Origin: a virus
Virus record (IMG/VR): IMGVR_UViG_3300034198_025876
Location: 1 to 23,942 of that record
Direction: 5' to 3' (one strand)
DNA length: 23,942 nt
A program made the translations under genes and the position numbers. Below the pieces are notes generated by a model that did no database searches, had not been told where the DNA came from, and worked only from the letters and a program-made list of their open reading frames with translations. Numbering within the stretch: the stretch's first letter is position 1; each line of letters begins with the position of its first letter. Positions 1,931 through 20,651 of this stretch are shown here, one piece after another.

Positions 1931-2703
1931 TGGGGAGAAAGAAAAAAAATAAAAATTACTTCACTGAAGAAACAGAAGAAGCTATATTATTATATAATAG
2001 TAGTATTAATGATTATGAATTTAGGGATAGATTATATAATGAAAAAATACATTATGCTTTTTTAAAGTTAACAGAAAATATTATTCATACATTTAAATTT
2101 TATCACACAGAAGTAAATGATTTAAAAGATTTACAATATGAAGTAATTTCATTTCTTTTAAGTAAATTACATTTATATAGTCAAGAAAAAGGAAAAGCAT
2201 ACTCATATTTTGGAACTATAGCCAAAAGATATCTTATTCTTTCAAATAAAAAAAATTACAAGAAAAAATTAGAATTAATTTCTTTAGAAGATACAGATTT
2301 TGATGATGATATTAGTGATGATAATCTATTAAATCCCAATACTTTTTTAACACCAGAAGAATTTATTGAAGAACCATCATATATAAATGATATCTCAGGT
2401 CCTAAAACTAAATATGATGATTTATCTGATTTTATAGATATATATATTGAATATTGTACTAATAATTTATATGTTTTATTTCCTAAAGAAAATGATGCTA
2501 AAATAGCTGATGCTGTATTAGAAATTTTTAGGAAAAGAGATAATATAAATATTTTCAATAAAAAAGCACTTTACATTTATATTAAAGAAATGATTGATGC
2601 TAAAACCCCAAAAATAACCAAAATATCCGATAAGTTATATAATTTATTTAAAATTAAATATCTTTTTTACATAGAAAATGGATATTTTAATATTTATAAA
2701 TAA
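1930..2703 (+). CDS. Late sigma factor, T4 gp55-like (candidate)
   Basis: Candidate RNA polymerase sigma factor for late transcription, 257 aa, acting with host core polymerase. After a basic N-terminus (GRKKKNKN), residues 38-110 resemble sigma region 2: helices of alternating hydrophobic residues, then the block KGKAYSYFGTIAKRYLI. A similar Tyr/Phe-rich segment followed by a Lys-rich helix occurs in T4 gp55 and its phage relatives. An acidic stretch follows (EDTDFDDDISDD). There is no clear region 4, as is usual for gp55. In T4, gp55 recognises a promoter reduced to TATAAATA, and TATAAATA-like elements precede several genes here, which supports the call. T4 gp55 is about 185 aa; the extra C-terminal 100 residues are unexplained. 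The assignment is by pattern, not alignment. Both ends form TAATG overlaps. Confidence 0.55.
   Translation: MGRKKKNKNYFTEETEEAILLYNSSINDYEFRDRLYNEKIHYAFLKLTENIIHTFKFYHTEVNDLKDLQYEVISFLLSKLHLYSQEKGKAYSYFGTIAKRYLILSNKKNYKKKLELISLEDTDFDDDISDDNLLNPNTFLTPEEFIEEPSYINDISGPKTKYDDLSDFIDIYIEYCTNNLYVLFPKENDAKIADAVLEIFRKRDNINIFNKKALYIYIKEMIDAKTPKITKISDKLYNLFKIKYLFYIENGYFNIYK
2690..2702 (+). promoter_or_regulatory. Promoter-like ATATTTATAA/TATAAATA before 2703
   Basis: ATATTTATAA (2690-2699) runs into a full TATAAATA (2695-2702), an exact match to the T4 late promoter consensus. It lies inside the end of the sigma-like gene and touches the next ATG, so an RNA starting downstream would begin within that gene. 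It may instead be chance or a translation element. Confidence 0.25.
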
Positions 2704-3044
2704 TGAGCGCATTAGATGAAACTATATTTGGAAAAAAAACATTTTCTTCTATATTAGAAGAAATATATGATAACCAAAAGAAAAAAGAAAAACAAATTTC
2801 TACTTTAATATCAGAATTAAAACCTCTAATAAGTGATATTGGTGATGCAACTTTAATTGTTCCATTGATAAAAGAATATATGGAAATAGGTGTAAAAAAT
2901 GATGAACAATTAATTAAAATGGCTACTATTATTCAAAGAATCCTACAAAAATCATCAGGAGATGATAATAGTATGATATTAAGTGAGGCTGAAAAGCAAC
3001 AATTATTGAAAGAAATAGATAATATCTCTCAAAAAGAAAAATAA
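2703..3044 (+). CDS. Hypothetical helical protein, 113 aa
   Basis: The protein is short, soluble and largely helical: residues 15-50 form a charged coiled-coil-like segment (EIYDNQKKKEKQIS) and residues 85-113 form another. No catalytic motif is visible. It sits between the late sigma-like gene and the baseplate spike-like gene, joined by TAATG at its start and a TAATATG junction at its end. Position suggests a baseplate assembly or tail-completion helper, but I cannot name a T4 counterpart. Confidence 0.7.
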   Translation: MSALDETIFGKKTFSSILEEIYDNQKKKEKQISTLISELKPLISDIGDATLIVPLIKEYMEIGVKNDEQLIKMATIIQRILQKSSGDDNSMILSEAEKQQLLKEIDNISQKEK

Positions 3045-3045
3045 T

Positions 3046-4329
3046 ATGAGTACAGGTATTAAATTTGGATCAGATGCTAATACATCTAATTTATTCTCAT
3101 TTTTACATAAGCATAAATTAAAAACTAAACTTAAATTAGTAAGAACAAGAGCTATTATACTTAATGAAAATAGTTGTCCTAATATTTGGAAAGAATATGG
3201 AGAATACGCTTCTATAGGTAGTATAATATTTGAACTCCCAGAATTCCCAATTCCATCAGAAACATCAATCTCAAGCCCTAAATTTGATATATCAAATATA
3301 AAAGTAGCTAAACCTATATTTCCTAACATAAAACACTATCCATTAATAAATGAATTAGTATATATTATAGAATTAGCAGGTTTAAATATTAATATTGATC
3401 CTGATGATACTGATTACTATTATTTCCCCCCATTAAATATATATAATAACAACCATCATAATGCTTTACCTAATGAGGCTTTTGGTAATTCATTACCTCT
3501 ATCACAAGAAAAAGATTACCAACAAGTTGAAGGGGGGAGTGTTCAAAAAGTAACAGATAAAAATATAGATATTTATTTAGGAAAAACATTTCAAGAAAAA
3601 TTTAATATCCAACCACTCCAACCATATGAAGGAGATATATTATATGAGGGAAGATGGGGACAAGCCCTACGATTTGGATCAACAATAATAAATTCAGATT
3701 CACCTTGGTCAGAATTACCATCATCAGGTGATCCTATAACTATATTAAGTAATGGAATATATAATAATGGAAAAGATCCTTGGATTCCAACACTTGAAGA
3801 TATAAATAAAACTCCATCTAGTATATGGTTAAGTACAACTCAAAAATTACCTATATTAGTATCAAGTACATTATATAAATCCTATAAACCTATTAATTCT
3901 CCATTAAAACCAGAATTATATAATGGAGGAGAACAAATAATCATCAATTCAGGTAGAGTAATTATTAACTCTAAAACAGACCACACTTTAATTTCATCAA
4001 AAAAATCAGTAGGATTAAATTCTGATAATAGTGTTAATATAGATGCTAGAGATGAAACCTCAATAAGTTCTCCCTCAATTATTTTAGGGAATGGTGATAG
4101 AAAAAAAGCAGAACCTTTATTAAAAGGAGATATAACGCATGATGTATTAGTTGATATAATAGAAGCATTACTAGAAATAACTAGTGAATTATCAGTACTC
4201 TCAGGACAACCTATAGATGTACCATTTTTAAATCTAAATGTTACAGCTGATAATATTAATAGAAATTTATATAATATGTTATCAACAAAATTAACTAAAA
4301 TAAGATCAAATATTAGTAAAACTGAATAA
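3046..4329 (+). CDS. Baseplate hub/spike protein, gp5-like (candidate)
   Basis: Likely a virion protein at the centre of the baseplate. The N-terminus (about residues 30-65) reads like a small beta-barrel (TRAIILNENSCPNIW...IGSIIFELP), as in the OB-fold of gp5/gpV spike proteins. Residues 196-213 contain GDILYEGRWGQALRFGS, a beta-rich block typical of this group. Residues 296-349 are short repeated beta strands with Ile/Val alternating with Asn/Ser/Asp (IIINSGRVIINSK, SVNIDARDETSISSPS), as expected for a beta-helical spike. A helical end follows (HDVLVDIIEALLEI). There is no lysozyme domain like that of T4 gp5. Context supports the role: it starts the block that leads to gp25 and gp6. The stop overlaps the next ATG (TAATG). 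Function is inferred from pattern and context. Confidence 0.6.
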   Translation: MSTGIKFGSDANTSNLFSFLHKHKLKTKLKLVRTRAIILNENSCPNIWKEYGEYASIGSIIFELPEFPIPSETSISSPKFDISNIKVAKPIFPNIKHYPLINELVYIIELAGLNINIDPDDTDYYYFPPLNIYNNNHHNALPNEAFGNSLPLSQEKDYQQVEGGSVQKVTDKNIDIYLGKTFQEKFNIQPLQPYEGDILYEGRWGQALRFGSTIINSDSPWSELPSSGDPITILSNGIYNNGKDPWIPTLEDINKTPSSIWLSTTQKLPILVSSTLYKSYKPINSPLKPELYNGGEQIIINSGRVIINSKTDHTLISSKKSVGLNSDNSVNIDARDETSISSPSIILGNGDRKKAEPLLKGDITHDVLVDIIEALLEITSELSVLSGQPIDVPFLNLNVTADNINRNLYNMLSTKLTKIRSNISKTE

Positions 4330-5945
4330 TGGCTATTGATAGTAATAATATTATAAATCAAATATCAGGTTCAACTCAAAAAGTTCAAGAATCTGTTGAT
4401 AATACTATTAATTCTTTTATTGAAAGATCTAATAATACTCAAGAACAAATAAATAAATATACTGATTTATTAGCTAAAAATCAAAAAATATTAGATGATG
4501 CTCTTTTAATAAGGAACTTATATCGAAAATATAAGGAAGATCAAGAAAAAGATAAAATTAATAAAATCCAAAAGAAAAAACGTAAATTACCAAAGGGAAT
4601 TGGAGGAATTATTTTATCATTATTAAAGCAATCTTCAACAGTTAATGATAGATTTAATAAAAGTTTAGAAACTATATTAAACCAATTATCAGAATCTTGT
4701 CCCTCTGAAGAAGTTTTAAAAAAACTTATCAAAGAAAAAAATAATTTATCTAATGCTTTAAATCAAACATTACCTTATTTACAACAAGCAGAAAAAGTAG
4801 GTAATACTCTTACACCAGTTTTAACAGCATTAAGGATAATAATTCAAATATTAAAAAATTTACCACTACCAACAGCAGTACCCCCAGGAGTGGGAATTCC
4901 AGTTAATGTAATAAATAAATTTTCAGATATACTTGTAAAATCAGATAAAAAAATTGATAAAACTAGTGCTATAATTAATCAAATAACATCAGCAATATCT
5001 ATTATAAAATCATTAATAGAAGAAACTTTACAAACAATTACAGTATTAGATAGTTTATTAGAGGTTTGTTTTCAACAAATAACTCAAAATATGTCTGAAG
5101 AAGAAAAAAATAAATTTAAAAATGAAATAACACCAGACGATAATATATTTATATTCCCAGGATTATATAAAGAATTTATTTATGATAAAGAATATGTAAA
5201 TGTAACTTCTGCACTTACCGGATTAGAAAATAATATGATTAGATTATATGCTAATAAATCAACATCTAATGGTAATATACGATTAGAAGGTAATTTATTT
5301 TTTACACCAAATAATCTACAATTAATTAATGATATTAAAATAGTAATTGATAACTATTTAAACCCAAAAACAGTAACAACAACAGGTAATTATAGAGGGT
5401 TTACTTATAATATTGAAACTAATAAAAATAATAAACTTCAAATACCACAAAGAAGAGCAATAGGAATAAAAAATAATATTAAATTATCAACAGAATATTC
5501 ATTTACCCCAAATACTCAAATTCTAATAGAGGAATTAAAATTTATAATAGATAATTATTTAGATAAAAATATAACCACAAATGTTGTGGATTATTTAAAT
5601 AATATCCCCACAATCCAAGAACCTAATTTAGAAGAAATTTTTTCATCCCAAATATCTGATATCACAACCTCAGCATATAAATACGTTGATTATAATATAA
5701 TAGATAGTTATTATAATGATATAAAAATTAAATTAAATAATGGAACCTTATCCATGAATGAAAAAATATTTAATGAATTAAAAAATTATGAATATGTAAT
5801 AAAATATTTTAATGAAAACGGAACAGAAAAAACCCAACGAATAACATTTAATAATTTTTCATTTAAAATCAAAGCAATTAAAGATTCTATAGATAAAAAT
5901 ACTATAAAAACCACTACATCAATAACAATAGTTAAAGAATACTAA
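4329..5945 (+). CDS. Tail/baseplate protein with long coiled coils, 538 aa
   Basis: Unrecognised structural protein. Residues 1-75 and about 95-165 are Gln/Asn/Lys-rich helices with coiled-coil character. A hydrophobic, Pro-rich loop follows at about residues 178-195 (LPLPTAVPPGVGIPVNVI), then another long helical segment to about 265. The C-terminal half is beta-rich and holds two similar blocks about 66 residues apart, at roughly 321-345 (FFTPNNLQLINDIKIVIDNYL) and 387-413 (SFTPNTQILIEELKFIIDNYLD), so it probably contains a duplicated domain. Its place between the spike-like protein and gp25 suggests a baseplate or tail-tip component. At 538 residues and in this position it is unlikely to be the tape measure. 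It is coupled to the gene before it by TAATG; a 20-base gap follows. Confidence 0.65.
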   Translation: MAIDSNNIINQISGSTQKVQESVDNTINSFIERSNNTQEQINKYTDLLAKNQKILDDALLIRNLYRKYKEDQEKDKINKIQKKKRKLPKGIGGIILSLLKQSSTVNDRFNKSLETILNQLSESCPSEEVLKKLIKEKNNLSNALNQTLPYLQQAEKVGNTLTPVLTALRIIIQILKNLPLPTAVPPGVGIPVNVINKFSDILVKSDKKIDKTSAIINQITSAISIIKSLIEETLQTITVLDSLLEVCFQQITQNMSEEEKNKFKNEITPDDNIFIFPGLYKEFIYDKEYVNVTSALTGLENNMIRLYANKSTSNGNIRLEGNLFFTPNNLQLINDIKIVIDNYLNPKTVTTTGNYRGFTYNIETNKNNKLQIPQRRAIGIKNNIKLSTEYSFTPNTQILIEELKFIIDNYLDKNITTNVVDYLNNIPTIQEPNLEEIFSSQISDITTSAYKYVDYNIIDSYYNDIKIKLNNGTLSMNEKIFNELKNYEYVIKYFNENGTEKTQRITFNNFSFKIKAIKDSIDKNTIKTTTSITIVKEY

Positions 5946-5946
5946 A

Positions 5947-5961
5947 CATAAATATTTATAA
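5947..5961 (+). promoter_or_regulatory. Late-promoter-like element before 5966
   Basis: CATAAATA (5947-5954) overlaps ATATTTATAA (5952-5961) in the 20-base gap before the ATG at 5966. Both words recur before other starts in the window. The distance to the start codon (4 bases) is shorter than at 8621, 15392, 18565 and 20626 (12-15 bases), so this copy could serve translation or a transcript that starts inside the coding region. Confidence 0.3.
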
Positions 5962-5965
5962 AAAA

Positions 5966-6319
5966 ATGACAACAACAAGTAAACTCAAATCAATAATTAA
6001 AGATTCAGTACGTGAAGTATTTCAAGAAGAAATTAAATCAATTTTAATAGAAGCATTAAAAACACCAGAAAGCAAAAAAGATATAAAAGAAAATATTGAT
6101 TATTCTAAAAATTTGTTAGATAAAAAACAAATGTATAAAAGTATTTTAAATGAAATGGGTCAAGGTAATGATACTTTTTCATTTAATTCTTCTGATGTAT
6201 CTAAAATGTCTAATCAATCTCAATACAACCCTCCCCCCGTTAATACCCTTGGAGAAGGAACTAGATTACCTGACGGGGAAGTAGGATTAGATCAAATTAT
6301 GGGTTTATTAAATAAATAA
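5966..6319 (+). CDS. Small virion-type protein with helical leader, 117 aa
   Basis: The N-terminus is an amphipathic helix (SKLKSIIKDSVREVFQEE), closely like the leader of the 88-aa protein at 18587. It is followed by L27-I28-E29|A30, a match to the T4 prohead protease recognition rule (Leu/Ile-x-Glu before Ala/Gly/Ser). The middle is charged and helical; the C-terminal part is Pro/Gly/Asn-rich and looks disordered (YNPPPVNTLGEGTRLPDG), ending in a short hydrophobic tail. Such leaders occur in small proteins of marine T4-like phages; in T4 itself they target internal proteins into the capsid. Lying just before gp25, it could equally be a baseplate accessory. Function unknown. Six bases separate it from the gp25 gene. 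Confidence 0.65.
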   Translation: MTTTSKLKSIIKDSVREVFQEEIKSILIEALKTPESKKDIKENIDYSKNLLDKKQMYKSILNEMGQGNDTFSFNSSDVSKMSNQSQYNPPPVNTLGEGTRLPDGEVGLDQIMGLLNK

Positions 6320-6324
6320 TTAAA

Positions 6325-6738
6325 ATGGCTATAATTTTAAAAAATAAATTTGTATTAGATAATTATTCTAATTCTAAACAAATTGGATTTAAATTTCCAT
6401 TAAATGCTCCTGCTGTATTTAACCCAACATATGATGTAAAAGATCAATTAAATGCTAATATAACTAATTTTTTAATGACTAATCAAAATGAAAGAGTATT
6501 TAATACTAAATTTGGATTACCATTAAGAAAATATGTTTTTGAAGCTATGACAGATCAAAATTTTGAAACTTTAAAAATGTTCTTAAAATCTAGTGTATCA
6601 AGAGCTTTTCCTAATATCCAAATTTATAAAATAGATTTTCTCCAATCCCAAACTAAAGAAAATGTTTTAATGATTGATATGTATTATAACATTCTAAACT
6701 TCGGCTCCAATTCAGTTAAAATAGTTTTACAAAACTAA
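6325..6738 (+). CDS. 25: Baseplate wedge protein gp25-like
   Basis: Baseplate wedge subunit of the GPW/gp25 family, 137 aa (T4 gp25 is 132 aa). The family signature is visible: NERVFNTKFG (residues 55-64), then LPLRKYVFEAM (65-75), matching the E-R...P-x-F-G...VFE core. C-terminal strands follow (RAFPNIQIYKIDFL, NVLMIDMYYNI). Family members resemble a lysozyme fold, but their established role in contractile tails is structural: joining gp6 and the sheath initiator at the inner baseplate. It sits directly before gp6, as in T4. The ATG is preceded by AATTAAA with no Shine-Dalgarno sequence. This is one of the two most secure calls in the window. Confidence 0.92.
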   Translation: MAIILKNKFVLDNYSNSKQIGFKFPLNAPAVFNPTYDVKDQLNANITNFLMTNQNERVFNTKFGLPLRKYVFEAMTDQNFETLKMFLKSSVSRAFPNIQIYKIDFLQSQTKENVLMIDMYYNILNFGSNSVKIVLQN

Positions 6739-6742
6739 TACT

Positions 6743-6750
6743 TATAAAAT
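6743..6750 (+). promoter_or_regulatory. Possible promoter-like TATAAAAT before gp6
   Basis: TATAAAAT lies in the 14-base gap between gp25 and gp6, ending 2 bases before the ATG at 6753. It resembles the TATAA core of the other candidates but lacks the ATATTT part. Weak. Confidence 0.15.
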
Positions 6751-6752
6751 AA

Positions 6753-8612
6753 ATGACAATAAACAGAAATATAACATATACTAATAGAGATTTTTCCGAT
6801 TTAAAACAATCTTTAACAGATTTCTCAAAAACGTATTTTCCAAATACATATAATGATTTTTCACCATCATCAACTGGAATGTTATTCATGGAAATGGCAT
6901 CATATGTTGGAGATGTATTATCATTTTATTTAGATAATCAAATACAAGAAACATATTTACAATACGCTAGACAAACAGAAAATTTATTTGCTTTAGCATA
7001 TACATTAGGATATAGTCCTAAAGTAACATCTGTAGCTACAACCAATATTGATGTTTATCAAAGAGTTCCATCCAAATTAAGTGGAAGTGTAAATATACCA
7101 GATTTTAATTATGCTATTATAGTTCCAGAAAATACAAGTGTAGGATCTAATATTGGAACAAGTAATGTTAATTTTTTAATACAAGATAAAATAGATTTTT
7201 CTTATAGTAGTTCTACAGACCCAACAGAAATATCAGTATATTCTATTTCATCAGGGAATCCTACAGAATTTTTATTAAAGAAAACACGCAAAGCTATATC
7301 AGCTAATATAAATTCAATAAATTTTAGTTTTGGTTCTCCTGAAGAATTTCCTACAATAACATTAAATGATGCTAATATAATTAGTATTTTAGATGTTTTT
7401 GATTCTGATGGAAATCAATGGTATGAAGTACCTAATTTAGCTCAGGAAACAATATATGATACTATAAAAAATACAAATACTAACGATCCTAATTTTTCTA
7501 TAGATAATGAAATCCCATATTTATTAAAATTAAAAAAAGTAGCCAGAAGATTTGCTACTAGATTTTTATCATTATCATCTTTACAAATACAATTTGGTTC
7601 AGGTACTAATGAAGATGTTACTGAAAATATAGTTCCAAATCCAAATAATGTAGGATTAGGATTACCATACGAACAAATAAAATTAACAACAGCATTTTCT
7701 CCAACAAATTTTATATTTACAAACACATATGGGATAGCTCCATCAAATACTACTTTAACAATTAGATATTTAAAGGGTGGTGGGATAGAATCTAATGTAC
7801 CTGCAAATAATATTAATACTATAGATAAAACAAATATAATATTTATTAATAGTAATATTACAGGAAATACAGCTAATTATTATTTTGATAGTGTTAGAGC
7901 TAATAATCCATCAGCAGCTGATGGTGGTGGAGGAGCTGATTCTGATGAAGAAATTAAACAAAATGCTTTAGGAACTTTTCAAACACAATTAAGATCTGTT
8001 ACTCAAGATGATTATTTAATAAGAGCTTTAAGTTTACCATCAAGATATGGTACAATATTTAAAGCATATGCATCTGTAGAAAAAATATCTAATTTAAATA
8101 TTGGAGAAGTAACACCATCATTAGGGTTATATATTTTAAGTCAAAACAGTAATAATAATTTAAAATATGCATCATTAGCTTTAAAACAAAACTTAAAAAC
8201 ATACCTTTCTCAATATAAAATAATTAATGATGTTATTAAAATTAAAGACGCTTTTATAATCAATATTGGCGTTGATTTTGATATTATAACTTTACCAAAT
8301 TTTAATAATAATGAAGTTCTATTAAATTGTGTTAATGCTTTAAGTGGATATTTTGATATAAACAAATGGCAGATAAACCAACCAATATTATTAAGAGATT
8401 TATATACTTTATTAGATAAAATTGAAGGTGTTCAAACTGTTAAAAATTTAAATATTTATAATAAAACAGGAATAGCTAATGGTTATAGCGATTTTGCTTA
8501 TGATATTTTAGGAGCTACAATAAATAATATAATCTACCCATCAATTGATCCAATGATTTTCGAGGTGAAATTCCCACAAACAGATATTAGTGGAAGAGTA
8601 TGTAGTTTTTAA
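6753..8612 (+). CDS. 6: Baseplate wedge protein gp6 (baseplate J-like)
   Basis: Baseplate wedge subunit of the gp6/gpJ family, 619 aa (T4 gp6 is 660 aa). In T4, gp6 forms the ring that holds the inner baseplate together and changes shape on contraction. The N-terminus carries the family's strong signature: TYTNRDFSDLKQSL (residues 9-22), then a segment with FSPSSTGMLFMEMASYVGD and a long helix to about residue 95 (QIQETYLQYARQTENLFALAYTLGY). The central part is beta-rich; the C-terminal domain contains DDYLIRALSLPSRYG, as in baseplate J proteins, followed by alpha/beta repeats (FIINIGVDFDIITLP). It directly follows gp25, the T4 order. The 31-base gap behind it holds a promoter-like element. 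Confidence 0.92.
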   Translation: MTINRNITYTNRDFSDLKQSLTDFSKTYFPNTYNDFSPSSTGMLFMEMASYVGDVLSFYLDNQIQETYLQYARQTENLFALAYTLGYSPKVTSVATTNIDVYQRVPSKLSGSVNIPDFNYAIIVPENTSVGSNIGTSNVNFLIQDKIDFSYSSSTDPTEISVYSISSGNPTEFLLKKTRKAISANINSINFSFGSPEEFPTITLNDANIISILDVFDSDGNQWYEVPNLAQETIYDTIKNTNTNDPNFSIDNEIPYLLKLKKVARRFATRFLSLSSLQIQFGSGTNEDVTENIVPNPNNVGLGLPYEQIKLTTAFSPTNFIFTNTYGIAPSNTTLTIRYLKGGGIESNVPANNINTIDKTNIIFINSNITGNTANYYFDSVRANNPSAADGGGGADSDEEIKQNALGTFQTQLRSVTQDDYLIRALSLPSRYGTIFKAYASVEKISNLNIGEVTPSLGLYILSQNSNNNLKYASLALKQNLKTYLSQYKIINDVIKIKDAFIINIGVDFDIITLPNFNNNEVLLNCVNALSGYFDINKWQINQPILLRDLYTLLDKIEGVQTVKNLNIYNKTGIANGYSDFAYDILGATINNIIYPSIDPMIFEVKFPQTDISGRVCSF

Positions 8613-8620
8613 TTTTTTTT

Positions 8621-8633
8621 ATATTTATAATAA
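8621..8633 (+). promoter_or_regulatory. Late-promoter-like ATATTTATAA before 8644
   Basis: ATATTTATAA (8621-8630) plus TAA lies between the gp6 stop and the ATG at 8644, ending 13 bases before the start. Its surroundings match those at 15392 closely: both read ATATTTATAA, then AAATTAATTTAAA with small indels, directly before an ATGG start. This shared block of about 30 bases in separate noncoding gaps argues for a conserved signal. Confidence 0.45.
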
Positions 8634-8643
8634 ATTAATTTAA

Positions 8644-9804
8644 ATGGCTGTATATAAAATATTTCCTACAAAGGATGCTACTTTATACTCATTATATCCT
8701 GAAATGAACACAGGATTAGATGAAATAATAGAAGCTACAACTACTACTTTTAGTCCATTTGGAGATGCAAATCCTCAAGTAAGTAGATATTTAATTTCAT
8801 TCGACCAAAGTGAAATCGAAAATATTATCAACACTAAAATATCAGGAAGTTGGGAAACTAGATTAAGAATATTCCATGCTAACTTCTCAGGATTATATAC
8901 AACAAGTACTTTAGAATGCTACCCAATATCAGGTTCTTGGTACATGGGAACAGGACATTATTTAGACTCTCCAGAAGTTACAAATGGAACTAGTTGGAAT
9001 TGGTTAAATTATAAAGATTCTGAACAATGGGCTACATCAAATTTTTCACAATATGTAACAGCATCATATAGTGGTAGTACATCTAGTGGAGGAGGAACAT
9101 GGTATACAGGATCAAATTACCCATCATTAAATATAATTCAATCTCAATCATTTAATTATCAAGATTCTTTTGATTTAAATTTAAATGTTACAGATACTAT
9201 TAAAGTTTGGTATAGCAGTAGTAATAATTTAGGGAATTATACTAACATAATAAATAATGGTTTTATTATAAAACAACCAATAAATAAGGAATTTATAAAC
9301 TCATCGGACTCAGAAACCGAATTTAAATTCTTTTCAGCAGATACTCATACTATATATCCACCACAATTAGAATTTAGATGGGATGATTATAAATATAATA
9401 CTGGTTCATCTTCATTTCCAATAATAACCGATTCTAATGCTTCTATATCATCTCCTAATAATATAGGAGTTTTTTATAATCAAAGTGTTCAAAGATTTAG
9501 ATTAGATGTAAGACCTCAATACCCTATTAGAGTATACCAAACAGCATCTATTTATATAAATAATTACTATTTACCCCCAACAGTATCTTTATATGCTATT
9601 AAAGATTTAGATACTAATGAATATGTAATAGATTTTAATAACACTTATACAAAAATAAGTGCTGATTCTCAAAGTAATTATTTTGACATATATATGAATG
9701 GATTGCAACCTGAAAGGTATTATACCATTCTAATCCAAACAACAATTGATGGTTCAACATTAGTTATTGATCAAAACATAGTATTTAAAGTTATTAATGG
9801 ATAA
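8644..9804 (+). CDS. Fibrous tail/baseplate protein, DNRLRE-like, 386 aa
   Basis: Likely virion surface protein. The N-terminus (residues 1-75) follows the pattern of DNRLRE-type beta-sandwich modules, namely aspartate near the start (FPTKDATLYSLYPEMNTG) and a strand ending in SRYLISFD, and continues with a beta-rich, Trp/Ser/Gly-rich region (WETRLRIF, GSWYMGTGHYLD). Such modules occur in extracellular and phage adhesion proteins. The last 100 residues are beta strands with a fibronectin-like feel (PPTVSLYAIKDLDTNEYVIDF, YYTILIQTTIDG). No enzyme motif is visible. Its place right behind gp6 is where T4 keeps gp7 and gp8, but I see no clear similarity to either. The stop overlaps the next start (TAATG), so the two products are probably made together. 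Confidence 0.6.
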   Translation: MAVYKIFPTKDATLYSLYPEMNTGLDEIIEATTTTFSPFGDANPQVSRYLISFDQSEIENIINTKISGSWETRLRIFHANFSGLYTTSTLECYPISGSWYMGTGHYLDSPEVTNGTSWNWLNYKDSEQWATSNFSQYVTASYSGSTSSGGGTWYTGSNYPSLNIIQSQSFNYQDSFDLNLNVTDTIKVWYSSSNNLGNYTNIINNGFIIKQPINKEFINSSDSETEFKFFSADTHTIYPPQLEFRWDDYKYNTGSSSFPIITDSNASISSPNNIGVFYNQSVQRFRLDVRPQYPIRVYQTASIYINNYYLPPTVSLYAIKDLDTNEYVIDFNNTYTKISADSQSNYFDIYMNGLQPERYYTILIQTTIDGSTLVIDQNIVFKVING

Positions 9805-10256: not shown

Positions 10257-10269
10257 TAATCCAAAATAA

Positions 10270-13200
10270 ATGAGTACTCCAATAATAACTAATATAAATC
10301 CTAGAACATTAGAAACAAGTGTTTTTAGTACTCAAGACTCTACTCTTATAACATCTTACATATTAAATAGTACATTTAATTCTTCTACAGATTTTATAGA
10401 ATATTATATATTTGATTCTAAAAACAATGTAATAAATCAAAACACAAATTCAACTAATTATAATTTAGAATCAATTATCCCCGGTAGTGCTAATTCAACT
10501 ACTATAACTCTTACCCCAGAAAATGATCTAATAAATTCAGGTTATGCTAGAGGGATTTATAAAATATTATATAATTTTTTATCACCAAAATTAGGTTCTA
10601 TACCTTTTTTTATAAAAGAAATATCACCAGATAGAACAGAAATAAGATTACAAAATAATTCTTATTCTAATGTTCAATTAGAAACTTTATTTAATTTATT
10701 TAAAGATGAATTATTTAATACTATATATTTTGATGAATTTTATTTAAATTTTGGTAATAATAATTTATATATAGGAGTTAATGCTGTATTAGATACAAGT
10801 ACTTCTGATTATACAATTTTAATAAAATTATATCAACCTCTACCTACAACATTTACTGTTAAGGATACATTAAATATAACAACTAAAGTTGTAGAATCTG
10901 TAGCTTATTCTATATTATTTCCTGAAGAAATTATAGAAAGTGATAATAGAATATTTTTACAAGGTCCTAATATTAATATTCCTACAAATAATAAAGTAGG
11001 AATATCATCAAATTACTATAACCAAAATCAATTATTATCATCCCCATTATCAAGTTCATATAACCAATTACAAAGTATTTTAGCTGAAAAAAGCGTTGAA
11101 TTAAATATTGATTATACAGAATATTCAAATTTTATTTACTTTAGTTCTATATATCAAAGAATAATTAATTTTTATGAAAAAGCTAGTAATCTTGAAAATT
11201 ATAAAAATGATTTAACAGTATTAAATAATATTACTGGTTCTACATCTTCTTCATTAAGTGTTTTATCTAGTAAAGCTTTAATTAATAATGAAGTAACAAA
11301 TATTATTAAAAATTTTGATGGGTATGAATATTTTCTATATTTTGAATCAAGTTCATTTGCTTGGCCAAAATCAAATTCCCAATACCCATATACATTATAT
11401 AATACTGGAAGTTCTCAAGTTTTAAATTGGTTAGGAAGTACTAATATAGGATCAGCTTATTATGGTGGTCAATTATTATCGGCTTCATTATATGATAATG
11501 AAAATCAAAATAACTTAACATATACTATACCTGAATTTATAAGAGAAGACTCAAATAATAACCAATATTTACTATTTGTTGAAATGATGGGTCAATTTTT
11601 TGATAATTTATGGTTATATACTAAAGCTATAACAGATAAAATGAATGCTGATAACCGAATTAATTATGGTATTTCAGCAGATTTAGTATCAGAAGTATTA
11701 CAATCATTTGGTCAAAAAATATATACTAACCAATTTTCATTAAATGATTTATACTCTTCACTTTTAGGATCCACTCCATCAGGAAGTACAAATTTATTTT
11801 ACGGAACAACAGGCTCATTACCTACACCATCAGGTTTAGAATATATTAGTAATTATATTACTGCTTCTAATAGTATAATCCCATTAGATGAAGCTAATAA
11901 AAGATTATATAAAAGATTATATCATAATTTACCTTATTTGCTTAAGAAAAAAGGTACTATTGAAGGAATAAGAAGTATAGGAAATATATATGGTATTCCA
12001 GATACTATTTTAAGAATAAATGAATTTGGAGGAAAAAATAAAGATAATTCAAATGATTGGGATCAATGGCAATCCACATTTAATTATGCTTATAGAACCT
12101 TAGGTCAACAAGGTACAATATCAATTCCATGGAAACCACTATCTACAACAAATAAATACCCCCAATCTATAGAATTTAGATTTAAAACAGTAAATGCTAA
12201 ATTAGCAAAATCATACCCAAGCCAATCAGTTTTAATATTATCAGACCCATCAATTTCATTGGGTTTTAGTGGAATAGCATTATTATTAGAATATACAGGT
12301 TCAGGATATACTAGTGGTTCATATTCCGGTTCAATAACTAATCCTTATTACCAATATGGAACATTAAAAATGTATGGTAATAATACATCTGCTAGTGTAT
12401 ATTTACCATTCTTTAATGATGGTTGGTGGTCAGTTTTAATGACTTTTGACAGTGGTAGTTCTACATTATACTCTAAAAACAATATATATAATGGATTTGA
12501 TGGTAATACTATAGGATTTGAAGCATCATCAACAGCTAATATTCCTTCTTCTTCACTAGATTTTTCTAATGTTGCATATCTTGGAGGTATTAGTTCCTCT
12601 GCTCCTCCACAAACTAATATAGCCGGTAAAAATTATGTTGCATTTACAGGTTCATTTCAAGAATTTAGATATTATTCTAATAAATTAAATGAAAATAAAT
12701 TTAATAATTATGTATTAAACCCACTATCAATAGAAGGAAATTCAAATGCAGAATCAGCATATAATACTTTATTATTTAGAGCTCCTTTAGGTTCTTTATT
12801 AAACAAAGTATCAAATGCATCATTACAAACATCTATCCACCCTTCTATCACCGGTTCATACCCAATAACTCAATCATTTAATGATGGGACTAGTACTTAT
12901 GGTCCTTTATTTAATGACCAAACCCCACTATGGTATAATAATTATGAAACTATGTTTCTAGATTCTCCTAGCGCTGGTTTAGATAATATAGTTAATAATA
13001 AAATACAAATAGTAGATAGTAGTAGTTTATATGGTAATGTATTATCCAAATATATAACATTAGAACAAAACCCAGAAACTAATCAAACATATAGTCCTAA
13101 TGTTAATTTATTAGAAGTTGTTTTTTCCCCACAAAACGAATTAAATACTGATATAATTAATAGTTTAGGATTTAATAGTATAAGTGATGCTATTTCTGAT

Positions 13201-15363: not shown

Positions 15364-15391
15364 TAAAAAATAATAATTCTTAATCTTTTAT

Positions 15392-15404
15392 ATATTTATA
15401 AATA
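15392..15404 (+). promoter_or_regulatory. Late-promoter-like ATATTTATAAATA before 15417
   Basis: ATATTTATAA (15392-15401) overlaps a perfect TATAAATA (15397-15404) in the 53-base gap after the giant tail gene. It ends 12-15 bases before the ATG at 15417 and shares its flanks with the element at 8621. It is the best promoter candidate in the window because it lies in a true gap and matches the T4 late consensus exactly. Confidence 0.5.
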
Positions 15405-15416
15405 AATTAATTTAAA

Positions 15417-16061
15417 ATGGGATACTTAAATTCTCAAATCATTAGCGTAGACGCTATATTAACTACCAAAGGTAGACAATTACTTTCTCAAGGTAATTTT
15501 AATATTACACAATTTGCATTATCAGATGATGAGATTGATTATACATTATATAATCCAAATCATCCATCAGGTTCATCTTATTATGGTGAAGCCATAGAAA
15601 ATATGCCTTTATTAGAAGCTTTTCCTGATGATAGTCAAATCATGAAATATAAATTAATTACTTTACCTAGGGGTACAGCTAAAATACCTATTTTAGATTT
15701 AGGAACTACTAACATTATATTAAAACAAGGAGCTTCATATACTATAAAACCTCAAACATTAAATTATTTAGGTGGAAGTAATCAAGAACAAAATGGATAT
15801 ACTGCTACTATAAATGATATTAGATTAATGAGCACATTTTTAGGAGTAGGTATTAATACTCCAAATGCTCAAGCTTTAAATTCATCTCCAACAATAGGAA
15901 CAAGCGTATCTAAAACAGTAATTGGAACTACAATTAGTTTAACAGCAACTACACTCAATACATTATTTGGTACAAGAACCCAAATTCAATCAAACATAGT
16001 AATTGAAGGTAGAGACAGTGGAGCACGATTAACAATTCCTGTAACTATAACTAAAATATAA
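15417..16061 (+). CDS. Tail structural protein, 214 aa
   Basis: Probable virion protein of a type common in T4-like phages of aquatic bacteria. The N-terminus has a recognisable opening, YLNSQIISVDAILTTKGRQL, then ITQFALSDDEIDYTLYNPNHPSGS. A middle beta domain and a Thr-rich beta-sandwich end follow (TVIGTTISLTATTLNTLFGTRTQ), resembling an Ig-like fold. No catalytic motif. Being first after a strong promoter-like element and before the fibre paralogs, it may be a connector that mounts fibres on the baseplate. I know of no characterised homolog, so the exact role is open. Confidence 0.6.
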   Translation: MGYLNSQIISVDAILTTKGRQLLSQGNFNITQFALSDDEIDYTLYNPNHPSGSSYYGEAIENMPLLEAFPDDSQIMKYKLITLPRGTAKIPILDLGTTNIILKQGASYTIKPQTLNYLGGSNQEQNGYTATINDIRLMSTFLGVGINTPNAQALNSSPTIGTSVSKTVIGTTISLTATTLNTLFGTRTQIQSNIVIEGRDSGARLTIPVTITKI

Positions 16062-16078
16062 TATATTAAAATAATAAA

Positions 16079-17113
16079 ATGGGATTTCAAAGATTAGACC
16101 CTCAAGATATAATTGTAAGTATTGAATCAGCAACAGCAGCTGCTTGGAGTAATTCATTACCTACATTAACTACATTTTTTACATCTTCTGCTCAAGAAGG
16201 AAATACGACTGGTAATTATTATTTAGATGTTTATCAAACATCTTCTTCAGATACCTCAGCAGCCATTCAATTCTCAATAGCATATGCTGATTTAGATGGT
16301 AGTGGAAGTACTTTATATAATGCTTTAATAACTGGTTCATCCCCAACTAGAACTTTATACGGGCAGTATAGAAATTTAGTTTTAGGGAGTGAATATTCTA
16401 GTTTTGTATTTGGTAATGTTACAAGTTCTTATTTCCATGCTATATCAATTGAAAGAGCAAGATATAAAGAACATTTATTACCAGGAACTATGACCTTATT
16501 AATAAGTGGTTCATTAGGAACTATTTCTCTTACTGATGATAGTTATCTTGGTGTAACAAACTATGTTGATGCAGGAAGAGTATATAATCTGATATCAGGT
16601 TCTGCTGGAGTTAAAACTTCATCTACAACACTTTCACCCCTTGGATGGACGAAAGAAAGTGGTTCTTATGGATGGTTCTTACCTGATGTAGGATTAATTT
16701 TATTAAATGGCTTGGCTATGTCTGGAAGTACTTTTGCGGCTAATGGTTCCCCTAGTGTTCCTATTAATAGAAGTTTTAACTCAAACGGGTTAAATAATAG
16801 AAAAATGTTCCAAGCATTAAGTGGTAGTACTAGTAAGAGTTGGTTATTAAATAGTCAAGAAACATTATCATCTGATTATGCTTTTATAAGGGCAAGAAGT
16901 GGAGAATTTAATTATACTGAAAATCCAAGTTATATTTCTAGTAGTACAGGTGAAATAGTTTATTCTTCATTTATTAATAACCCAGTTACTTACGTTACTA
17001 CTATTGGATTATATAATAATAATAATGATTTACTAGCAGTAGCTAAATTATCAAGACCTTTACAAAAAGATTTTACCAAGGAACTTTTAGTGAGAGTGCG
17101 CCTAGATTTTTAA
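16079..17113 (+). CDS. Fibre-like tail protein A, 344 aa
   Basis: Likely tail-fibre or baseplate decoration protein, rich in Ser, Gly and Thr. The body is beta strands (YYLDVYQTSSS, FQRLDPQDIIVSIESATAAAW), with a middle motif ERARYKEHLLPGTMTLLISG and a strand YGWFLPDVGLILLNG. The C-terminus (about 282-344) reads NPSYISSSTGEIVYSSF, then TTIGLYNNNNDLLAVAKL, then RPLQKDFTKELLVRVRLDF. The same body plan and tail recur in the next gene, so the two are paralogs. The conserved C-terminus is probably the attachment or trimerisation part, while the bodies have diverged, as expected when receptor contacts change. No enzyme motif. Confidence 0.65.
   Translation: MGFQRLDPQDIIVSIESATAAAWSNSLPTLTTFFTSSAQEGNTTGNYYLDVYQTSSSDTSAAIQFSIAYADLDGSGSTLYNALITGSSPTRTLYGQYRNLVLGSEYSSFVFGNVTSSYFHAISIERARYKEHLLPGTMTLLISGSLGTISLTDDSYLGVTNYVDAGRVYNLISGSAGVKTSSTTLSPLGWTKESGSYGWFLPDVGLILLNGLAMSGSTFAANGSPSVPINRSFNSNGLNNRKMFQALSGSTSKSWLLNSQETLSSDYAFIRARSGEFNYTENPSYISSSTGEIVYSSFINNPVTYVTTIGLYNNNNDLLAVAKLSRPLQKDFTKELLVRVRLDF
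17001..17050 (+). repeat. 50-base direct repeat, copy 1
   Basis: Bases 17001-17050 recur at 17981-18030 with one mismatch in 50 (A versus G at the eighteenth base). Both copies encode the GLYN(N/D)NNDLLAVAKL segment of the fibre paralogs in the same frame. The rest of the two genes is far less similar. Confidence 0.9.
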
Positions 17114-17121
17114 TATAATAA

Positions 17122-18093
17122 ATGAGAGTATATAAACAATTCACAACAGATGAAGTTATATCACAACCCTTTATAGCCAATAAATTATTTAATATAACAG
17201 GAAGTGCAATAACTGGATCTAATATTGGAATCGATATATTCTCAGGTTTAAATCTCCCATCAACATTACTATTTTCTACTAGTTCTGATCCAACAACTGG
17301 ATTAATAGATACTAAATATAAAAGATTAGTATATGATAATATAAGAGAATTATATTATTCTAATAATGTAAACTATTATGCTGATTTGGCCCCTCCTAAC
17401 TTATATGATAACTACAATAATTCTATAATACAATCATATACAGGTTCAATCTCATCATCCTTCGGAAGGTTTTATAATTATCCTCAAACAGATTTATATT
17501 ACCCAAAGTATTTTCCAACATCTTCCCAAAATATAAATGATAGTGGAAGTATAACTGTAATTTCTATCCCATCTAAAATATTTGGCAATCATATAGTACC
17601 TAATACTTTTAGATTAAATTGTGGTGCTTATTCCATTATGGATGATGGTGAAGGAAATTTAGTAACATCACCATCAACGTATGGGGTTGGAACATATGGA
17701 TATAGTCTATATTTAAATGAAAATTCAGTAGGTAATATAATTTATCAACACGGAATAGCCATTATTACCCAAGGTCCATCATCAAGTTTAGCTGATAATT
17801 TAAATATAAATAATTTAAACATATCTTTTTCTTCATCAATTAATATTTACGAAAATAGATGGAATTGTACTTTAAAAGATAATGAATCTACTTTCTCCCA
17901 AAACCCATCAATAGTATCAAGTAGTAATGGGGAATTATACGGGTTTGCTACTAGTTCATATTTTAATCCTTATATAACAACTATTGGATTATATAATGAT
18001 AATAATGATTTACTAGCAGTAGCTAAATTAGCTAAACCATTACAAATTTCAAATGTCACAGATATGAATATCTATGTTAGTATAGATATGTAA
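17122..18093 (+). CDS. Fibre-like tail protein B, 323 aa (paralog of A)
   Basis: Second fibre-like protein, related over its full length to the gene at 16079. Equivalent parts are recognisable: ISIPSKIFGNHIVPNTFRL here against SIERARYKEHLLPGTMTLL there; VGNIIYQHGIAIITQG against YGWFLPDVGLILLNGL; and a C-terminal TTIGLYNDNNDLLAVAKL followed by KPLQ. The N-terminal half (VYKQFTTDEVISQPFIANKLFNITGS) is its own. It is rich in Tyr, Asn and Ser and probably forms a beta-structured fibre. The gap to gene A is 8 bases and to the GIY-YIG gene 7 bases. Likely partners: gene A's product and the 214-aa protein. Confidence 0.65.
   Translation: MRVYKQFTTDEVISQPFIANKLFNITGSAITGSNIGIDIFSGLNLPSTLLFSTSSDPTTGLIDTKYKRLVYDNIRELYYSNNVNYYADLAPPNLYDNYNNSIIQSYTGSISSSFGRFYNYPQTDLYYPKYFPTSSQNINDSGSITVISIPSKIFGNHIVPNTFRLNCGAYSIMDDGEGNLVTSPSTYGVGTYGYSLYLNENSVGNIIYQHGIAIITQGPSSSLADNLNINNLNISFSSSINIYENRWNCTLKDNESTFSQNPSIVSSSNGELYGFATSSYFNPYITTIGLYNDNNDLLAVAKLAKPLQISNVTDMNIYVSIDM
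17981..18030 (+). repeat. 50-base direct repeat, copy 2
   Basis: Second copy of the 17001-17050 repeat, 980 bases downstream, inside the C-terminal end of fibre-like gene B. Synonymous positions are also conserved, which suggests recent duplication or gene conversion rather than protein-level constraint alone. Confidence 0.9.
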
Positions 18094-18100
18094 TAAAAAT

Positions 18101-18544
18101 ATGAAAAACTGGTTATATAACGATAATAAAATATCTTCACTGGAAGATATGCCTTCAAATGTTTATGGATTTATATACATTACTACTTACCTTCCTAGTG
18201 GTAAAAAATATATAGGTAAAAAATCTATATACCATAATGTTAAACATAAACTTACTAAAAAACAATTAGCAGAACAAACCGGCAGAGGAAGAAAATCTAT
18301 ACATGAAACTATTCAAAAAGAATCGGATTGGAAAACATATTATGGTTCTGAAGAATTTATAAAACAAAAAATTAAAGAAAATAAACATGAAGAATTTACA
18401 CGTGAAATAATACAGTTTGTATTTAATAAAAAGTTACTTACATATTATGAATGTAAATATTTATTTATAAACGGTGTATTAGAATCTGAAGACTGGTTAA
18501 ATAGCAATATTTTAGGAAAGTTTTACAAAACAGATTTCAAATAG
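18101..18544 (+). CDS. GIY-YIG endonuclease-like protein, 147 aa
   Basis: Predicted DNA endonuclease of the GIY-YIG type, as in T4 Seg homing enzymes. The two halves of the motif are visible: G23-F24-I25-Y26 and, ten residues on, Y37-I38-G39 in YITTYLPSGKKYIGKKS. An E117 in TYYECKYL is a plausible catalytic glutamate. A basic middle (residues 40-70) would fit DNA contact, and WKTYYGSEEFI (77-87) is shared with many phage copies. The first motif is GFIY, not GIY, which many active members also show. It stands directly behind two duplicated fibre genes, where free-standing homing genes often settle. Whether it is active or homing is not shown by the sequence. Confidence 0.7.
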   Translation: MKNWLYNDNKISSLEDMPSNVYGFIYITTYLPSGKKYIGKKSIYHNVKHKLTKKQLAEQTGRGRKSIHETIQKESDWKTYYGSEEFIKQKIKENKHEEFTREIIQFVFNKKLLTYYECKYLFINGVLESEDWLNSNILGKFYKTDFK

Positions 18545-18564
18545 GTATTTTTTAATTTTTTTAC

Positions 18565-18574
18565 ATATTTATAA
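18565..18574 (+). promoter_or_regulatory. Late-promoter-like ATATTTATAA before 18587
   Basis: ATATTTATAA lies in the 42-base gap between the endonuclease stop and the ATG at 18587, ending 12 bases before the start, the same spacing class as at 8621, 15392 and 20626. T-rich DNA precedes it, as at 8621. Confidence 0.45.
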
Positions 18575-18586
18575 CAAATTAAACAA

Positions 18587-18853
18587 ATGAAAAAATCAGA
18601 ATTAAAACAAATTATTAAAGAAGAAATTTCTAAAGTACTTAGCGAACAATCCCCAAATTTTAAATCTATAAAAGATATAAGTAATTATCTTGTAAAAGGT
18701 GATTATGATGAATTGGATGGTTATGAAAAAAAAGAATTTTTAATTATTATGAAACATATTCAAAGTGATATATTAGATAAAGGAAAAGAATTAACACCAA
18801 CAAAATTAAATGCGCTCATAGTTAAATTAGAAGATAAATATGGTTGGTATTAA
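18587..18853 (+). CDS. Small protein with helical leader, 88 aa
   Basis: The N-terminus, MKKSELKQIIKEEISKVLSE, is an amphipathic Lys/Glu/Ile helix seen at the start of many small proteins in T4-like phages of aquatic bacteria and resembles the one at 5966. It ends in L18-S19-E20 before Q21, a partial match to the T4 prohead protease rule (the next residue should be Ala, Gly or Ser). The rest (IKDISNYLVKGDYDELDGYEKKEFLIIM) looks like a compact helical domain. It has its own promoter-like element upstream and a strong terminator downstream, so it may be made from a short transcript as well as by read-through. A virion or internal head protein is possible. Confidence 0.65.
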   Translation: MKKSELKQIIKEEISKVLSEQSPNFKSIKDISNYLVKGDYDELDGYEKKEFLIIMKHIQSDILDKGKELTPTKLNALIVKLEDKYGWY

Positions 18854-18878
18854 TACAAAATAAATAGTATTTTAAATT

Positions 18879-18903
18879 AAGCTTGGTTTCCCAAGCTTTT
18901 TTT
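18879..18903 (+). terminator. Intrinsic terminator
   Basis: A perfect 8-bp stem AAGCTTGG (18879-18886) with CCAAGCTT (18891-18898), a TTTC loop, and a run of seven T (18897-18903). It lies 25 bases after the stop of the 88-aa gene, in the only place where the tail/fibre block gives way to replication-type genes. It is the one clear terminator in the window and marks a transcript boundary on the plus strand. Confidence 0.88.
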
Positions 18904-18918
18904 ATTATATTATAATCA

Positions 18919-19854
18919 TTGGTAAATCAACTACTTATATCATTAGCTAATTCTGTTTTAGGAACGGGTAAATCTACAAGTAAAGGCAACTATGCTTATT
19001 ACTGTCCTTTTTGTTCTCATAAAAAAAGAAAATTAGAAATCAACTTTACTGAAAATAAAGAAGGGGAAAATAGATGGCAATGTTGGGTGTGCCTAAATAA
19101 GGGAAAAAAATTAATAAATTTATTTAAAAAATTAAATGTTTCCCCTGAAATTTTATCCGAAGTTAAATCTTTAACTAAAACTAATTTAACAATTAATGAT
19201 GCATCATTAGATTATAAAAAATTAGAATTACCTAAAGAATTTAAATCATTAATAGATCCCCCAATAAATAATATTATAGCAAAACATGCTATAAAATATA
19301 TAAAACAAAGAAACCTAACAAAAGATGATATCATTAAATATAATATAGGTTACTGTGAGGGTGGAGAATATAAAAACATGATAATTATTCCTTCTTATGA
19401 TGCTAATTGTAATTTAAATTATTTTGTTAGTAGATCCTTTAAAAAAGATGATTTTATTAAATACAGAAACCCAGATACATCTCGCGATATTATACCTTTT
19501 GAAATATTTATAAATTGGGATTTACCTATAATTTTATGTGAAGGTGTTTTTGATGCTTTTGCTATAAAGCGTAACGTAATTCCTTTATTAGGGAAAAATA
19601 TTCAAAATAAGTTAATGAAAAAATTAATCAGTTCTAATGTTAAAAAAATATACATAGCATTAGATAAAGATGCCCAAAAACAATCATTAAACATATGTGA
19701 ACAATTTATGAATGAAGATAAAGAAGTTTACTTAGTTGATTTAGATGATAAAGATCCCAGTGAAATGAGATTTGAAAACTTTACTAACTTAATTCAAACC
19801 GTTCAACCACTAACATTTTCAAATTTATTTGAAAAAAAACTAAAATTAATATGA
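18919..19854 (+). CDS. DNA primase, zinc ribbon plus Toprim
   Basis: Predicted primase that makes RNA primers for lagging-strand synthesis at the phage fork, 311 aa (T4 gp61 is 342 aa). A zinc ribbon is visible: C29-P-F-C32 and C55-W-V-C58. The Toprim domain follows: E208 in ILCEGVFDAFAIKR and the D249-K-D251 pair in IALDKDAQ, the acidic metal-binding set. The region between holds PPINNIIAKHAIKYIKQRNL...YNIGYCEGGEYKNMIIIP, as in phage primases. The start is unusual: there is no ATG before the zinc ribbon, an in-frame stop lies at 18913, and TTG at 18919 is the first usable codon. The stop overlaps the nuclease start (ATGA). It is the first gene after the terminator, so it probably starts a new transcript. 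Confidence 0.85.
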   Translation: MVNQLLISLANSVLGTGKSTSKGNYAYYCPFCSHKKRKLEINFTENKEGENRWQCWVCLNKGKKLINLFKKLNVSPEILSEVKSLTKTNLTINDASLDYKKLELPKEFKSLIDPPINNIIAKHAIKYIKQRNLTKDDIIKYNIGYCEGGEYKNMIIIPSYDANCNLNYFVSRSFKKDDFIKYRNPDTSRDIIPFEIFINWDLPIILCEGVFDAFAIKRNVIPLLGKNIQNKLMKKLISSNVKKIYIALDKDAQKQSLNICEQFMNEDKEVYLVDLDDKDPSEMRFENFTNLIQTVQPLTFSNLFEKKLKLI

Positions 19855-20651
19855 TCGAAAAAAATGTTTATGTTTATAAAAAAAGTGTACATCGTATACT
19901 AGATATAGACCCAACCTCTAAAAGAGTAAATATAATGGATAATCGTTTCTATAGTAGAAACAATGATTATTACCCATCAGTTACAAGTATCTTACAATTT
20001 ATGCCTAAAGGTAAATTCTTTGAGACATGGTTAAAAGATGTAGGACATAACTCAGATATTATAGCTAGAAAAGCAGCTGATGAAGGAACACAAGTCCATA
20101 ATGCTATTGAAAAATATTTATTAGGAGAAAAAATTCAATGGTTAGATGAAAATAATCATTCTAATTATTCTTTGGATGTTTGGAAATTAATTCTAAAATT
20201 CCATGACTTTTGGACAGCAGTTAAACCTGTTTTAATTGAAAGTGAAATACATTTATTTTCTGATAAATACAAATATGCTGGTACCTGTGATTTAGTAGTA
20301 GAAATAGATGGAGTAAGATGGTTATTAGATATTAAAACTTCAAATGCAATACATACAGCTATGGATTTACAATTAGCTGCATACGCTCAAGCATGGAATG
20401 AAACTTTTGAAGAAAAAATTGAAAAAACAGGTATTATTTGGTTAAAATCATCTAAACGTAAAGAAGGAAAATTACAAGGTAAAGGATGGGAAATATATAA
20501 ATCACCCCGTACATTTGAAGAAAATTTAAAATTATTTAATTTGATACATGATTTATTTAAATTAGAAAACCCTAACACAAGACCATCTCAAGAATCATTC
20601 CCTATTGAAATTCAGATAGACCACAATATTTATAATAAAACTGAAGAATGA
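19851..20651 (+). CDS. PD-(D/E)XK nuclease, RecB/Cas4-like
   Basis: Predicted exonuclease of the RecB-like PD-(D/E)XK family, 266 aa. Motifs in order: a T-S-I-L-Q-F segment near residues 45-50; EGTQVHNAIEKYL (78-90) with H83, the conserved N-terminal helix; E132 in ESEIHL; GTCDLVVE with D147; LLDIKTS with D160 and K162, the core metal-binding set; and QLAAYAQAW (174-182), the Q-x-x-x-Y motif of this family. It lacks the four-cysteine cluster of iron-sulphur Cas4 enzymes. The role is probably DNA end processing in recombination, repair or host DNA breakdown. It is coupled by ATGA both to the primase before it and the nucleotidyltransferase after it, so the three are one expression unit. Confidence 0.85.
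   Translation: MIEKNVYVYKKSVHRILDIDPTSKRVNIMDNRFYSRNNDYYPSVTSILQFMPKGKFFETWLKDVGHNSDIIARKAADEGTQVHNAIEKYLLGEKIQWLDENNHSNYSLDVWKLILKFHDFWTAVKPVLIESEIHLFSDKYKYAGTCDLVVEIDGVRWLLDIKTSNAIHTAMDLQLAAYAQAWNETFEEKIEKTGIIWLKSSKRKEGKLQGKGWEIYKSPRTFEENLKLFNLIHDLFKLENPNTRPSQESFPIEIQIDHNIYNKTEE
20626..20635 (+). promoter_or_regulatory. Late-promoter-like ATATTTATAA before 20648
   Basis: ATATTTATAA lies inside the end of the nuclease gene, 12 bases before the ATG at 20648, with the same spacing as the elements at 8621, 15392 and 18565. If real, it would let the two right-hand nucleotidyltransferase genes be switched on late, separately from the primase and nuclease. Being in coding DNA (codons for NIYNK), chance is a stronger alternative. 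Confidence 0.35.

Follow-up and report, generated by a model that had tools for sequence, protein, structure and literature searches.

The late promoter of phage T4, TATAAATA, is an eight-base, -10-like element that lies before structural genes, has no -35 element and is served by a phage sigma factor of the region-2 kind, gp55. A similar word, TATTTATA, recurs in the 23,942-nucleotide stretch of viral DNA analysed here (hereafter the window, in which genes are named by the coordinate at which they start). It shares six of its eight bases with TATAAATA in the same orientation, with TT at positions 4-5 where T4 has AA. The system further differs from that of T4 in that the elements often lie just 3-20 nt from the ATG and in that the sigma factor encoded here carries an extra C-terminal domain that gp55 lacks. 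The initial annotation noted that several copies run into the T4 late promoter; the conserved word is instead TATTTATA, and since the test for TATAAATA itself was negative, the element falls outside the strictly defined T4 consensus class. It is very probably a T4-late-promoter-like element, a two-base variant with a gp55-like sigma factor as its reader, in T4-like phages of Bacteroidota.

Two other phages bear comparison. Flavobacterium phage vB_FspM_immuto (Immutovirus) is a cultured relative of 160 kb with gp20, gp23, tail sheath, family A DNA polymerase, DnaB and DnaG. It infects Flavobacterium sp. LMO8, shares the late block and encodes an orthologous sigma factor (gp118) that is 39% identical; TATTTATA likewise stands before its portal, sheath, tube and tape-measure genes. 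It differs in G+C content (34.5% vs 25.6% here) and in its tail genes. The open-access literature that we searched held no promoter description for immuto and, judged by title, no description of TATTTATA as a phage promoter. In the Far-T4 phage RM378 of Rhodothermus, a Bacteroidetes-type T4-like phage examined over 1-50 kb (locus L483), a similar word, TATTTAAA/TTATTTAA, shows the strongest enrichment of all AT words in upstream regions (8 observed vs 0.1 expected) and departs from TATTTATA at its 3' end. Words resembling TATTTAA stand before the RM378 sheath, tube and portal genes and may be a late promoter close to TATTTATA.

The sigma-A promoter of Bacteroidota (TAnnTTTG, at -12 to -5) also begins with TA, and its position relative to the transcription start would be similar. 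However, TATTTATA ends in TATA and not in TTTG, and we rejected the sigma-A -7 box as its identity because bases 6 and 8 differ. The host is probably a member of the Flavobacteriales (Bacteroidota), as far as the binning of phage contigs, which can mislead, allows: four contigs from metagenome-assembled genomes encode a sigma factor 52-58% identical to that of gene 1930 and are assigned to Flavobacteriaceae, Flavobacteriales, Winogradskyella and 'bacterium', and no Shine-Dalgarno sites were seen by eye in the upstream regions.

Copies of the word in the window

The eight forward copies of the longer word ATATTTATAA reported initially (2690, 5952, 8452, 8621, 15392, 18565, 19504 and 20626) are all present, six of them ending 3-15 bases 5' of an ATG (2703, 5966, 8644, 15417, 18587 and 20648), and the minus strand has a ninth at 9387-9396. 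Nine copies on both strands compare with 2.7 expected, a count matched by one of 100 dinucleotide shuffles of the window. As the core for all further counts we used TATTTATA, because it is the longest part common to the window and its relatives. There are 11 forward copies of this core; six lie 4-16 nt 5' of a start codon, and the remaining five fall within genes and far from any start. Since the zone 3-30 nt before starts makes up only 2.7% of window positions, the binomial probability of finding at least six of 11 copies there is 1.6e-7. The six sites and the two ATATTTATAA copies that lie deep in coding sequence are as follows.

2691..2698, + strand: TATTTATA, predicted late-promoter element; ATG 2703 is 4 nt on; overlaps the 3' end of the sigma gene
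5953..5960, + strand: TATTTATA, predicted late-promoter element; ATG 5966 is 5 nt on; motif in 25/25 orthologs
8622..8629, + strand: TATTTATA, predicted late-promoter element; ATG 8644 is 14 nt on; motif in 8/41 orthologs
15393..15400, + strand: TATTTATA, predicted late-promoter element; ATG 15417 is 16 nt on; motif in 39/39 orthologs
18566..18573, + strand: TATTTATA, predicted late-promoter element; ATG 18587 is 13 nt on
20627..20634, + strand: TATTTATA, probable late element; ATG 20648 is 13 nt on; within the 3' end of the exonuclease gene
8452..8461, + strand: ATATTTATAA in the gp6-like gene; next start 183 nt away
19504..19513, + strand: ATATTTATAA in the primase gene; next start 338 nt away

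Chance probably accounts for the two copies at 8452 and 19504, which are inside coding sequence and not near a start. The sites at 8621, 15392 and 18565 have T-rich flanks in common and AAATTAA downstream, a look-alike of about 40 bp. The initial statement that several copies run into TATAAATA holds for two forward sites (2695 and 15397) and fails for the rest; with 20 copies of TATAAATA in the window against 18 expected, this overlap is incidental.

Conservation in non-redundant orthologs separates these sites. The four unit starts proposed at the outset fared unequally: 15417 is certain by conservation, with a motif-to-start distance of 7-29 nt among orthologs; 18587 stands, with the motif in both of the only two relatives that have a detectable ortholog; 8644 is, on ortholog comparison, a lineage-specific unit start; and 20648 holds in part, since the same junction carries a TATTTATA/T copy in 2/2 relatives at a different distance and with a host-type box adjoining, so that the element at 20627..20634 is weaker than the other five. 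In those two relatives (L139 and L171) the 20648-21562 junction has, besides the TATTTATA/T copy, a TAnCTTTAGG box of host type, which suggests a dual promoter there. Two starts that had been left off that list, 2703 (TATTTATW upstream in 31/37 orthologs) and 5966, are among the best conserved. At 5966 the start codon is backed by conserved N-termini among orthologs, and the very short spacings at this gene are therefore not start-codon errors.

Enrichment and gene context in related phages

With two window proteins (1930 and 16079) we gathered 160 IMG/VR loci. The word was counted in a non-redundant set of 2,368 upstream regions from related phages, the expectation being taken from same-strand coding DNA. 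In the test zone TATTTATA occurs 284 times against 6.9 expected, a 41-fold enrichment. The sequence is strict: 22 of its 24 single-base variants drop to 0.3-5.2-fold. The exception is TATGTATA, with 18 copies and 17-fold enrichment over a tiny expectation, and TATTTATT (6.9-fold) and TATTTAAA (5.2-fold) are partly tolerated. Most sites lie 3-25 nt before the ATG within a full spread of 3-30 nt, and there is a sharp floor at 3: spacings of 3, 4 and 5 nt have 16, 28 and 14 sites, and those from -1 to 2 only three together. An A occupies core position +12 in 90% of sites. Among 187 sites nothing exceeds 0.16 bits from -50 to -2 of the core, and so there is no sign of a -35 element; T4 late promoters likewise show no -35 conservation (PMC2988020).

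We also ranked 256 AT words upstream of genes, using the same pipeline in T4 and in the relatives. TATTTATA ranks 1 in immuto and in G001, 3 in G003 and G004 and 5 in G002, and the words above it mostly overlap either TATTTATA or the host-type box. TATAAATA ranks 1 in T4 and 18-156 in the relatives; by ranks and counts it is weak and secondary to TATTTATA and was rejected as the conserved word. Raw whole-genome counts of 8-mers are uninformative because AT-rich coding DNA swamps the signal; in counts of the word against controls run on whole genomes of relatives, as the initial annotation had proposed, the enrichment held.

The genes that carry the motif form a definite set. The window includes the following units, each with the motif before its first gene.

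2703..5945, + strand: first late unit in the window, genes 2703 (113 aa), 3046 and 4329; motif before 2703 only
5966..8612, + strand: late unit with the gp25-like gene 6325 and the gp6-like gene 6753, baseplate wedge genes by PHROG matches; motif before 5966
15417..18544, + strand: late unit of genes 15417, 16079 and 17122, with the GIY-YIG-like 18101; motif at 15417

Within units most or all orthologs lack it: 0/3 at 3046, 0/13 at 6325, 0/43 at 6753, 0/33 at 16079, 0/15 at 17122 and 4/35 at 18101. The motif is likewise found in none or one of the orthologs of 855, 1930, 9804, 10270, the primase 18919 (0/27) and the exonuclease 19851. A clear intrinsic terminator, AAGCTTGGTTTCCCAAGCTTTTTTT, lies at 18879-18903 between 18587 and the primase gene 18919, which is without the late motif. 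Across immuto and four large contigs, the sheath gene has the motif upstream in 6/6 cases, tube in 4/5 and portal in 3/5; hub, phoH, terL and the gene that follows portal have it to a variable extent, and replication and nucleotide genes almost never. A prediction for sheath and recA was fixed beforehand and run on fresh loci, portal being added in the same run: the motif stands before sheath in 8/12, before portal in 36/36 and before recA in 0/20. As in T4, the motif precedes late (structural) transcription units. Starts that bear it follow a gap of at least 20 nt in 122/156 cases (78%), compared with 226/773 (29%) for starts with neither motif, and the association with terminators at gaps of at least 40 nt is mild (22/61 vs 40/189). 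This pattern of gaps and genes argues for promoters at operon heads and not for a translation signal.

A translation-initiation signal of Bacteroidota-type mRNAs would account for the closeness of the word to start codons, and F. johnsoniae is reported to lack Shine-Dalgarno sequences, with initiation tuned by upstream bases (PMC6847099). This is nevertheless very improbable, given that the distance to the ATG varies over 3-30 nt, and over 7-29 nt even among orthologs, that operon-internal structural genes such as gp6 (0/43) are translated without the word, and that the word comes after gaps and sometimes terminators. Base composition is harder still to credit as the cause of the repetition. 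AT pairs make up about 75% of the window, and genes contain some of the copies, but the controls refute this origin (placement P ~2e-7 in the window, 41-fold enrichment, ortholog conservation).

Recognition by a host sigma factor, either sigma-A at TAnnTTTG or one of ECF type, would fit the overlap of TATATTTA with the TAnnTTTR pattern in many copies, yet the TAnnTTT pattern is broken at the many late sites whose sequence is CTATTTATA. Moreover, none of the promoter motifs described for F. psychrophilum, which has six sigma motifs (those described are TAnnTTTG variants, sigma-54, TAnnTTGY and a CGT box), is TATTTATA (PMC9723704), and in a Flavobacteriales genome bin TATTTATA has five copies, within the range of 0-7 for permuted words. 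Immuto also has host-type boxes of its own: at 68-74 kb (L170, 18000-24000) most genes in a run of small genes of unknown function are preceded, at exactly 28 nt from the ATG, by a TAnnTTTR box. These boxes, mainly outside the structural block, unlike TATTTATA, are probably a separate class of early promoter. We thus regard a host sigma promoter as most unlikely, and return to a phage-encoded reader of a late promoter.

The candidate sigma factor of gene 1930

The claim that TATTTATA acts as a late promoter is supported by its placement, its gene set and its conservation in relatives. The candidate reader lies at the end of a short operon.

593..600, + strand: TATATTTC, candidate host sigma-A type -7 box (TAnnTTTG-like), a single site read from the sequence
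1930..2703, + strand: gp55-like late sigma factor, 257 aa, with sigma region 2 and an extra C-terminal helical domain (about residues 160-257)

TATATTTC lies 5' of the operon 701-855-1661-1930, of which the sigma gene is the last. The assignment of 1930 as a gp55-like sigma factor, made in the initial annotation, is upheld by its family. As a single sequence the window protein gave no matches, while 38 of 44 homologs match Pfam Sigma70_r2 (best 9.2e-5) and 30 of 44 match PHROG 234, late sigma transcription factor (best 4.6e-4). When the family AlphaFold model (pLDDT 73; pTM 0.40 for the full-length model) is compared by VIA-align, T4 gp55 from the gp55-RNAP open complex comes out on top (7d7c_F, Z 10.2, 103 residues, 2.6 A), and numerous further sigma factors rank after it. 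Foldseek E-values for the model are weak and an hhalign comparison of the family with T4 gp55 by itself was not significant; by profile and model the match of region 2 to gp55 is thus a remote one, the likeness of the family to sigma region 2 in sequence and fold being plain.

The C-terminal domain has 23 invariant columns in 42 sequences and, modelled alone, a pLDDT of 87. Sigma region 4 was considered for it and rejected. Its best matches reach a Z of only 5.6 (winged helix) and 4.7 (TFIIB), too low to assign a fold. Sigma factors of the gp55 family have a hydrophobic/acidic C-terminal tail that binds the sliding clamp; the present family ends in ...FYLENGYxKF and T4 gp55 in SLDFLYEAND, and the two ends do not clearly correspond.

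In T4 gp55, pockets hold A-12 by Y97, A-9 by N13/H95 and A-8 by T99 (PMC7892883). TATTTATA retains A-12 and A-8 and has T at -9. In an alignment made by eye, Y97 corresponds to the invariant Y93, N13 and H95 to T12 and Y91, and T99 to G95; on this weak alignment the residue changes fit a specificity shift at -9.

In each of five relatives whose genomes are complete or nearly so, PHROG 234 is matched exactly once, and in all five the region-2 sigma gene adjoins the late block. This adjacency counts against the reading of TATTTATA by some other phage factor, such as an unrecognised activator or polymerase, as does the word itself, which is two bases from the T4 late element and without a -35 element, as expected of gp55-type recognition. 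Given that the tie between the 1930 protein and the word is a predicted one and that many immuto genes are of unknown function, another reader has some room, but we consider it unlikely. Sigma homologs only 28-30% identical (L214 and L215) have TATTTATA/T before the next gene. The L215 sigma relative (2293-2952), with TATTTATA-bearing neighbours, is filed under a Prochlorococcus single-cell genome, and the origin of the contig is doubtful. A point against the pairing of sigma factor and word is Microcystis phage Mel-JY01 (L208), which has a 35%-identical sigma relative and a related structural block without clear TATTTATA; upstream of its primase gene lies TATATTTG, a Bacteroidota-type box that is odd for a cyanophage.

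A proposed scheme for late transcription

Taking these data together, we consider it highly likely that TATTTATA is the -10-like element of a late promoter, read by the 1930 sigma factor with the host RNA polymerase, in this phage and its relatives, among them immuto and numerous uncultivated T4-like phages of Bacteroidota. The order of events that we infer is as follows. The sigma operon would probably be transcribed first, from host-type (TAnnTTTG-like) promoters. The 1930 protein would then bind host RNA polymerase, its region-2 domain would recognise melted TATTTATA, and transcription would begin about 4-6 nt 3' of it. The late mRNAs would be very short-leadered or leaderless, as befits hosts in which Shine-Dalgarno sequences play no part. 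If TATTTATA occupies -12 to -5, as does the sigma-A box in F. psychrophilum (PMC9723704), then at a spacing of 4 nt the A of the ATG would be +1 and the mRNA leaderless, the common A at core position +12 being this +1. Were the T4 spacing exact, some sites at 3-4 nt would start at the ATG or one base inside it, which counts against the scheme.

Searches with PF02916 (gp45) and PF16805 (gp33) matched T4 and found none in immuto and four large relatives. Since both were unmatched, and immuto has a family A polymerase and DnaB/DnaG, late transcription in the relatives may possibly be clamp-free or rely on a host clamp; it is also possible that these five relatives have remote forms of gp45 and gp33. 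One may tentatively speculate, at the risk of being wrong, that the C-terminal domain of the gp55-like sigma factor replaces the gp33/gp45 clamp coupling while the protein reads TATTTATA, with many late mRNAs leaderless or starting a few bases before the ATG.

Within the literature searched here, TATTTATA offers a first sequence-level handle on the late-gene switch in common aquatic T4-like phages of Bacteroidota, whose promoters are unusual and which make no use of Shine-Dalgarno sites. With it, late units can be predicted in uncultivated genomes; it also provides a test case for a specificity change in sigma region 2 (AA to TT at two positions) and for the question of whether T4-like phages in general couple late transcription to a clamp. 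In a large family of T4-like phages of Flavobacteria-type bacteria, TATTTATA stands before the late genes and is very probably the late switch, read by a phage-encoded sigma factor.
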